Of a stretch of 64,000 bases of DNA, positions 18,204 through 20,779 are shown one piece after another (positions within the stretch are counted from its first letter, which is position 1; each line of letters opens with the position of its first letter). The DNA comes from Methanococcoides burtonii DSM 6242 (GTDB lineage Archaea; Halobacteriota; Methanosarcinia; Methanosarcinales; Methanosarcinaceae). The position numbers and the translations under genes were made by a program. The notes under the pieces were generated by a model. It saw only the letters and a list, made by a program, of their open reading frames with translations. It was not told where the DNA came from and searched no databases. The DNA is taken from contig NC_007955.1 in NCBI RefSeq assembly GCF_000013725.1, positions 186,001-250,000 on the forward strand, given 5' to 3'.

Positions 18204-19477
18204 GGTTCTCTTTAACATCGTGTGGGTAAACTCAGTTTCCCTGCCATCAAGAATATCATTTTATTCCTGTACACTTCAGTCTTCAATCCATACGATCTCT
18301 TAAAAGCAGTCTTGATCTTGTTGTTCAATCCTTCAACAACACCATTGCTAATATTTCCCTTAATTGATTCCAGAATTCCATGAGAATTTCTTTTTATCAT
18401 CTTTGCTAATGTGATAACTTCCTTAATGTTGCTATGTGTTCCCCAATAATGCCATTTTTCAATATACTCTCTTGCTACATCCATATTTTTGATTTCCCAT
18501 AATCGCTGGAGTGCAAGTTTAAACTTGTACGCTTTAGCAGTTTTAGTATCCAAATCCTTGATCGATTGTATTTTAGCGATTTCTCTATCTGATAAATTTT
18601 CAGGATTTTTCAACCACATGAATCTGGTTTTACCAAGATCTTTATTTGATTGATACTCAGATCTTCGAACTTTATCAATAGCATCATTCATCATTTTTAC
18701 AATGTGAAACTTATCATAAACGATCTTAGCATTTGGAAAATATTCTCGTGCCCCTCCTTTGAAAGCAGGGTACATATCCATCGAGATATACTTAATGTTA
18801 TCAGGATCAATCTTCTTGGAAAGATATTCTCTAAACTTTTTGAACACACTTCTTTTCTTTCCATTTTCAATATGAATTATTCTTGATTTATTGAGATCAT
18901 AGAACAAAGTCACATAACTGTGACCTTTTTTGACAGATATCTCATCCACTCCAATTGTATCAAGACCAGACAGGTCCATCTTTGCTGCTGCTTTGTTAAC
19001 ATAATGAGTGAGAATTCTCCATACTGAATCTTCATGAATGTTAATCATTTCAGCAATAGCAGACACAGTCATTTCCTTGGATATAGCAACAATTAATGCT
19101 TCAAAGAACAAGGTAAATCCAGTGTTTTGTCTTGTCCAGGGAACATTGACAAGCTTTACACCATGTTCATTACATTTTGTTCGAGGGACTCTGGCATGAA
19201 GGTATGTTTCATAATGAAAAAAGTCGAGGTGTCTCCACACCTTTTTTTTTGTATCATGGAGTTCACTTAATTTGTTGCAAACAGGGCATGAGAATTTAGT
19301 ACCCTTGGAAAAATCAAGGTAGATGTCCATCCTCCTTTTAGAAGTATTGAGATCAATGTCTTTTACAAACCAAGGGGATAATAAGCCAAGGGTAATTTGA
19401 ATGAGTTCTTTATCTTCCATAATGATTGAATTGGAAGAAACGAATATTAAATTACCCACTCAATGTTGAGGAGATCC
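18204..19477 (-). mobile_element. ISL3-type insertion sequence, apparently complete
   Basis: About 1274 bp bounded by imperfect inverted repeats: 18204-18230 starts GGTTCTCTTTAACATCG and the reverse complement of 19451-19477 starts GGATCTCCTCAACATTG; 21 of 27 positions match and the block GTGGGTAA is shared. It holds a single transposase gene without visible frameshift. A/T runs flank both ends, and I cannot recognise the 8-bp target duplication usual for ISL3. Confidence 0.85.
18212..19420 (-). CDS. ISL3 family transposase
   Basis: About 402 residues. The N-terminal zinc-finger-like part has CPVCNKLSELHD and a W-R-H-L-D segment; the DDE part shows the motifs TIGVDEISVKKGHSYVT, KYISMDMYPAFKGGA, IVYDKFHIVKMMNDA and the final GVVEGLNNKIKTAFKRSYG, all typical of ISL3/IS1001-like enzymes. 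The frame opens at GTG 19459, but that codon lies inside the right inverted repeat, so ATG 19420 (MEDKELIQ) is preferred. Confidence 0.9.
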   Translation of the reverse strand: MEDKELIQITLGLLSPWFVKDIDLNTSKRRMDIYLDFSKGTKFSCPVCNKLSELHDTKKKVWRHLDFFHYETYLHARVPRTKCNEHGVKLVNVPWTRQNTGFTLFFEALIVAISKEMTVSAIAEMINIHEDSVWRILTHYVNKAAAKMDLSGLDTIGVDEISVKKGHSYVTLFYDLNKSRIIHIENGKKRSVFKKFREYLSKKIDPDNIKYISMDMYPAFKGGAREYFPNAKIVYDKFHIVKMMNDAIDKVRRSEYQSNKDLGKTRFMWLKNPENLSDREIAKIQSIKDLDTKTAKAYKFKLALQRLWEIKNMDVAREYIEKWHYWGTHSNIKEVITLAKMIKRNSHGILESIKGNISNGVVEGLNNKIKTAFKRSYGLKTEVYRNKMIFLMAGKLSLPTRC

Positions 19478-19727: not shown

Positions 19728-20336
19728 TCATTCCGTGTCCCTATCATTCGATACTACAACAATTGGTGTAGCATACCCCGACTTAACCAGTGTCTTCTGG
19801 TTTTTCCTTTCCCATTGTACAATCTGCATGTAATGTGACCACAGCAGGGACATGCCGCATCCACCAAGAAATGCAACGACACTTCTTAATCCGTAAATTG
19901 ACATGAAATGGGTGATCACAGCCACATATATGAAAATAATGATGCCAAAAACAACTATCCGTTTTATAGAGAGTTTTGTGGCAGCTTTACGGGGTATGCG
20001 AATTGCTATCCTGTCCAGTGAATGCCAGGTTGTTTTCCATGTAATCTTGCTTATCAATATCCCTAAAAAAGTTCCTGCCAGAACAATACCCATGTTCTTT
20101 CCGCCCCACGAAATAAACATATTTATGGGACCGATGGTGCCAAAAATTGATCCTATTAAAATCAAGTTGCGATATTTATTCCGCCATGTCATGGTCTTAT
20201 GGTTTGGTTCCCTACTTTTGTCAGGTGCATTTACCACAAGGTTATCGAATTGCATTGCTTTTCTGGCTTCCATCGCACCCAAATTCGGACACCATCCCAT
20301 GACTTTCCGTATAGTTTCTGCTATATTTATTGTCAT
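19728..20336 (-). CDS. DUF1673 family membrane protein
   Basis: A 202-residue protein beginning with the NIAETIRKVMGWCPNLGAME signature of DUF1673, a family expanded in Methanosarcina, followed by four probable membrane segments (around residues 55-75, 80-95, 125-145, 150-165). The function is unknown. Its ATG overlaps the TGA that ends the readthrough frame of the upstream regulator (ATGA), so the two genes look translationally coupled. Confidence 0.8.
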   Translation of the reverse strand: MTINIAETIRKVMGWCPNLGAMEARKAMQFDNLVVNAPDKSREPNHKTMTWRNKYRNLILIGSIFGTIGPINMFISWGGKNMGIVLAGTFLGILISKITWKTTWHSLDRIAIRIPRKAATKLSIKRIVVFGIIIFIYVAVITHFMSIYGLRSVVAFLGGCGMSLLWSHYMQIVQWERKNQKTLVKSGYATPIVVVSNDRDTE

Positions 20337-20779
20337 ACCAATCCTCTCAACTTTTCAAACAGTTCCTCTGCCAGTTTTGTAGGATCATCCGTCTGCTTCA
20401 GTTTGATTTTCATCTCATCTGCAAAGTCCTAAAGCAGTTCGATACACTCCCTGTACCTGCTGCATTTCCCACAATCTCCTTCGTGTTCATACCACACCTG
20501 CACACCGTATTTTTCAGACACAAAAATCAAGGTACTGACATTAAGGGGCACTAAGTGCCCGAACAGTATGCCGCGCTCAGAACTCATGCTCTCCATTTCT
20601 ATCTGGTTCGCCTGCGCCATCTCAAGCAGCGTATTCTCAATGCGTTTATCCATGCTGATAAGCGCTCTGGATACCGCCTGCCTGGAGATGTTGAACGAGT
20701 GTGCAATGTTGATGTTGGGAAGACCACCTCTTCGCAGTTTCCAGAACTCAAACTGTTTTTCTCCTGTTGGAAGGAACAT
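20333..20779 (-). CDS. HTH-type regulator with an in-frame UAG (possible pyrrolysine readthrough or nonsense mutation)
   Basis: A helix-turn-helix protein: NINIAHSFNISRQAVSRALI near residue 23 is the recognition region, and a cysteine cluster (CGKCSRYREC) sits near 105. The first frame stops after 116 codons at TAG (20429-20431). The same frame then continues DFADEMKIKLKQTDD, then PTKLAEELFEKLRGLV, and ends at TGA 20333-20335, which overlaps the ATG of the DUF1673 gene as ATGA. The continuation is charged and helix-like, not random, so the native protein was or is about 148 residues. In a UAG-poor genome this may be read as pyrrolysine; a recent nonsense mutation is the alternative. Confidence 0.7.

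Follow-up and report, generated by a model that had tools for sequence, protein, structure and literature searches.

The locus examined here raises the question of whether a UAG codon within a regulator gene of Methanococcoides burtonii terminates translation or is read as pyrrolysine (Pyl). The window, a stretch of 64,000 nucleotides (positions 186001–250000), was taken from a single contig of 2,575,032 bases, and on its minus strand an HTH open reading frame (20779–20429) runs for 116 codons before a TAG (20431–20429). The initial annotation had claimed that the frame continues past this TAG up to an overlap with the next gene, and its coordinates were confirmed: 31 codons are open as far as a TGA at 20335–20333, which the ATG of the DUF1673 gene overlaps as ATGA (Table 1). 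The length of the extension was dropped as evidence, since in about one quarter of the genes with a TAA or TGA stop the frame likewise stays open for at least 30 codons. The 31-residue tail aligns without gaps with the C-termini of all close homologues and is identical at 28–29 of its 31 positions in the closest, an agreement that, judged from the alignments, is far beyond chance. Long protein-like extensions past a TAG were also seen in two M. burtonii ORFs that have no Pfam match (L115 14986–15618, minus strand, and L120 157–807).

Table 1. Coordinates of the regulator locus in the window and of the other M. burtonii genes that carry a single in-frame TAG.
Feature	Location	Strand	Remarks
HTH regulator gene, full read-through frame	20333..20779	-	148 residues, UAG at codon 117, TGA end; homologues have 149 codons with the stop counted
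TAG in frame at codon 117 (proposed Pyl)	20429..20431	-	Trp (TGG) in 84/87 other distinct homologues
31 sense codons past the TAG	20336..20428	-	Strongly conserved in homologues; cover the C-terminal portion of helix 109-122 plus helix 133-145
H99-x3-C103-x2-C106-x5-C112 motif	20444..20485	-	Alignment of 35 homologues and weak Pfam matches
DUF1673 membrane-protein gene	19728..20336	-	ATG overlaps regulator TGA; PF07895, E = 8e-28
MobA-like gene, single in-frame TAG	L175 7128-7733	-	M. burtonii
HerA-like ATPase gene, single in-frame TAG	L128 7748-9025		M. burtonii
UPF0058 gene, single in-frame TAG	L189 12142-12426		M. burtonii
Unnamed gene, single in-frame TAG	L150 12191-12568		M. burtonii

Relatives of the regulator are present in 87 of the 186 genomes of the order, and also in Methanomicrobiales and Methanothrix. 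The comparison of codon 117 that had been suggested at the outset gave a clear result: among the 87 other distinct homologues spanning this codon none stops there, nearly all have Trp, and the three that do not (TGC, CAA and CGT, for Cys, Gln and Arg, one each) belong to one family. TGG is retained in two of the closest relatives, which are 88% and 85–86% identical. As nearly all homologues have TGG, none of them stops at this position and TAG occurs in the M. burtonii genome only, the TAG is best explained by a single G-to-A change in the M. burtonii lineage.

In the predicted structure (mean pLDDT 89.9), residue 117 lies within the helix formed by residues 109–122, which is followed by a helix at 133–145; according to this model, a stop at the UAG would delete the latter helix together with half of the former. 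Position 117 is near-invariant in the alignment of 35 sequences, and the tail beyond it holds the invariant residues E122, P133, A137, E139 and F141. In pairwise comparisons with 14 close homologues, pN/pS was 0.04–0.17 for the tail and 0.12–0.25 for the head, and by this measure the tail is under no weaker constraint than the head; its conservation may largely predate the TAG, so that these values are no proof of constraint after the mutation. A recent nonsense mutation, with the UAG terminating a 116-residue regulator that is either an incipient pseudogene or a working short form, would agree with the occurrence of the TAG in this genome alone and with the setting of the gene, near a DUF1673 pseudogene fragment and an ISL3 transposase, where genes decay. 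Such a mutation would nevertheless remove a tail containing five invariant residues, and the frame does not have the appearance of a nonsense pseudogene: no second lesion was found in its 148 codons, homology extends in frame before and after the UAG, and the pN/pS of the tail gives no sign of relaxed constraint past the stop.

The presence of tRNA-Pyl in the genome also speaks against termination as the sole fate of this codon. The search for the pylTSBCD genes that had been proposed for this locus recovered the full set, with pylS (439.6 bits) and pylB (591.3 bits) followed by the pylC and pylD ORFs and clustered with a tRNA-Pyl gene, for which ARAGORN gave the anticodon CUA. TAG terminates just 1.3–2.0% of the ORFs of at least 150–200 amino acids in the genome. 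The initial count of TAG-ended genes in the window, roughly 45 complete genes with only one other ending in TAG, was about right: of 60 non-overlapping ORFs with 100 or more amino acids, the regulator alone ends in TAG; four further TAG-ended ORFs have only 48–84 amino acids and are of doubtful reality. UAG does not act solely as a sense codon in this genome, since pylB terminates in TAG beside pylC, as noted earlier (PMC2933860), and read-through would pass the pylC start; this continued termination at UAG is a point in favour of a nonsense mutation in the regulator.

A comparison between genomes bears more directly on this alternative. ORFs from 48% of the genome of a congener (G001) were compared with 49% of the M. 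burtonii genome; initial counts of in-frame stops, dominated by antisense ORFs and by starts placed too far upstream, were set aside, and a filter for intact genes was then chosen. Among 352 near-full-length pairs, the M. burtonii member carries an internal stop in six, and every one of these stops is TAG, with no TAA and no TGA. One of the six, located over the 16S rRNA gene, was discarded as an artefact, leaving the regulator and the other four genes of Table 1. The chance of all five internal stops being TAG is 0.006–0.010 from codon usage, a rough figure which counts the regulator itself and depends on a filter set after the first-pass lists had been viewed. The M. burtonii genes in which TAA or TGA breaks the frame are all frameshifted, deleted or partial. 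Among the MobA matches in the genome, the TAG-bearing gene leads by a wide margin (93.8 bits, against 33 and 28 for the two that follow), and the TAG-bearing UPF0058 gene is the sole member of its family there; neither therefore has an intact second copy. In the reverse comparison, few intact genes of the congener were found with any internal stop. An in-frame TAG does occur in two histidine-kinase-like genes of the congener (L162 3931–5571 and 16093–17424, both on the minus strand); that of the second gene lies within the ATPase domain.

Among nonsense pseudogenes, TAA and TGA would be expected at the same frequency as TAG, whereas the intact genes with a single stop show TAG only. This pattern disfavours the recent nonsense mutation that the initial annotation had offered as its alternative, and we regard it as unlikely. 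The same pattern bears on a sequencing or assembly error with TGG as the true codon. The TAG differs by a single base from all close homologues and one genome of the species was compared, both points in favour of such an error, but the genome is complete in one contig and an error would not give TAG alone among the internal stops of intact genes, which makes this explanation extremely improbable. Taken on sequence evidence, the genome-wide pattern suggests instead that UAG is generally decodable in M. burtonii and is read in everyday genes beyond the methylamine methyltransferases. A report from 2025, which was given no weight in the present assessment, reportedly has M. burtonii using TAG as Pyl throughout; in the literature searched, no whole-genome paper on an archaeal 'Pyl code' was found. 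In annotation pipelines that treat TAG as a stop, such genes will appear as truncated or split.

We therefore consider it highly probable that TGG117 of the regulator has become TAG and that Pyl is inserted there by competition, yielding the 148-residue form along with some truncated protein, in a near-neutral change rather than as a dedicated regulatory device. A Trp codon would have mutated to TAG in the M. burtonii lineage, and with tRNA-Pyl(CUA), PylRS and the genes for Pyl biosynthesis present, and with TAG rarely ending genes, ribosomes would insert Pyl at position 117. At UAG, Pyl insertion is a matter of competition between Pyl-tRNA and release factor for which no element is required (PMC9499178, PMC8211752), and a reporter in M. 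acetivorans likewise showed 20–30% suppression of UAG with no element required (PMC2933860). Because of this competition, a mixture of full-length and truncated protein is to be expected: a 148-residue regulator carrying Pyl in place of Trp117, and a 116-residue product from the remaining termination, which would lack the last helix and would probably be inactive or degraded. The most likely outcome is thus a regulator made at full length with Pyl117 together with some of the 116-residue product. Sequence, homologues, pyl genes and the pattern across the genome are observations, whereas the actual insertion of Pyl, its efficiency and a working Pyl form are inferred. The replacement of Trp117 by Pyl is most likely near-neutral and tolerated, although Pyl might impair the protein, Trp117 being near-invariant.

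The N-terminal HTH region of the regulator (residues 7–50) matches the Tfx NCBIfam TIGR00721 (E = 0.0041) with 17 bits, below the family cut-off of 60.25; it is thus similar to the Tfx-type archaeal DNA-binding proteins in this region, whereas the remainder of the protein has no match to them. The same region resembles the solved 'archaeal transcription factor' 8hno, and a fold search of the PDB with the regulator gave no significant match. Shortly before the UAG, H99, C103, C106 and C112 are invariant in 35/35 aligned sequences. The spacing H-x3-C-x2-C-x5-C is that of the His-Cys3 [4Fe–4S] sites of the NuoG/FeFe-hydrogenase type. The NuoG Fe–S family PF10588 gave 12.8 bits, below its cut-off of 27, and 16 of the 35 members match it weakly. 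On the basis of this spacing and of the weak matches to an Fe–S family, the residues just before the UAG may form a His-Cys3 metal or Fe–S site, and the regulator may sense redox state or iron.

The DUF1673 gene that overlaps the regulator is the only full copy in the genome. Since a GAGAGG stretch, recognized by eye, precedes its ATG, its expression need not depend on read-through of the UAG. A second DUF1673 gene fragment (19742–19460, minus strand), which has its own in-frame TAG, adjoins the ISL3-type transposase (18212–19459). Orphan copies of the C-terminal tail of the regulator alone were observed at L029 1501–1623, L030 1501–1605 and G005:C4:24043–24117; those of L029 and L030, from congeners, lie directly before a second DUF1673-like start, and this arrangement suggests that they arose by tandem duplication.

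The UAG might also serve as a control element, the ratio of the 148- to the 116-residue form following the Pyl level and so tuning DUF1673 or other targets to growth on methylamines. Partial termination at UAG is expected from the 20–30% reading in the reporter (PMC2933860), the UAG is placed five residues past the invariant Cys cluster, and the regulator and DUF1673 genes overlap; against these points, the UAG is found in no other species, unrelated genes show the same TAG pattern, which points to neutral drift, and neither a PYLIS-like nor any unusual RNA structure was found around or after the UAG (z = -0.16 and 0.07). Tuning by Pyl supply is conceivable and finds no support, as the UAG is not conserved and no PYLIS-like structure accompanies it, and we judge such control to be very unlikely. 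Equally slight is the likelihood of a broader proposal, that UAG is in effect a Pyl sense codon in Methanococcoides and that the full-length regulator, possibly a His-Cys3 redox sensor, informs the DUF1673 operon of Pyl or methylamine status. The original suggestion that the UAG may be read as pyrrolysine was well supported, by indirect evidence, in respect of decoding, but not in respect of a protein length set by Pyl supply.

The near-neutral insertion of Pyl favoured here can be compared with known systems. In the methylamine methyltransferases MtmB, MtbB and MttB, of which one such frame was seen, an in-frame UAG is decoded as Pyl in the same organism; in these enzymes the UAG is conserved and catalytic, whereas that of the regulator is confined to one species and is not expected to be catalytic. 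The regulator does not resemble a conserved functional Pyl site of this type, its UAG being unconserved and lacking a PYLIS-like structure, although PYLIS is not strictly required. Earlier computational surveys included M. burtonii (PMC3639795, PMC1242214); the regulator gene is not named in the consulted passages of their main texts, and the method described in PMC3639795 is stated there to miss any gene for which no homologue has a UAG. In Candidatus Methanomethylophilus alvus, 1.6% of stops are TAG, in-frame TAGs occur in ordinary genes and many Pyl proteins have been predicted (PMC4153887). The two organisms are alike in their rare TAG stops (1.6% versus 1.3–2.0% of longer ORFs) and in single in-frame TAGs in non-methyltransferase genes, whereas Ca. 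M. alvus belongs to another methanogen order and has Pyl genes of another type. The gain of UAG by drift in ordinary genes is already known for Thg1, the tRNA-His guanylyltransferase, and has been proposed for many genes of Methanomassiliicoccales. Thg1 of Methanosarcina acetivorans, like the regulator, is an ordinary protein whose gene has an in-frame UAG in one species and a sense codon in the homologues (PMC2933860; the study by Heinemann in 2009 is among the works cited in PMC4153887). For Thg1, Pyl incorporation and activity have been tested, whereas for the M. burtonii regulator they are predicted; the regulator also differs in being a DNA-binding protein in which the replaced residue is a near-invariant Trp. 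Three features of the neutral, Thg1-type change from a sense codon to UAG were found for the regulator, namely pyl genes in the genome, homology on both sides of the codon with no other lesion, and a lineage-specific UAG in place of a sense codon. With it, a transcription regulator joins Thg1 among the few ordinary proteins that are likely to carry pyrrolysine.
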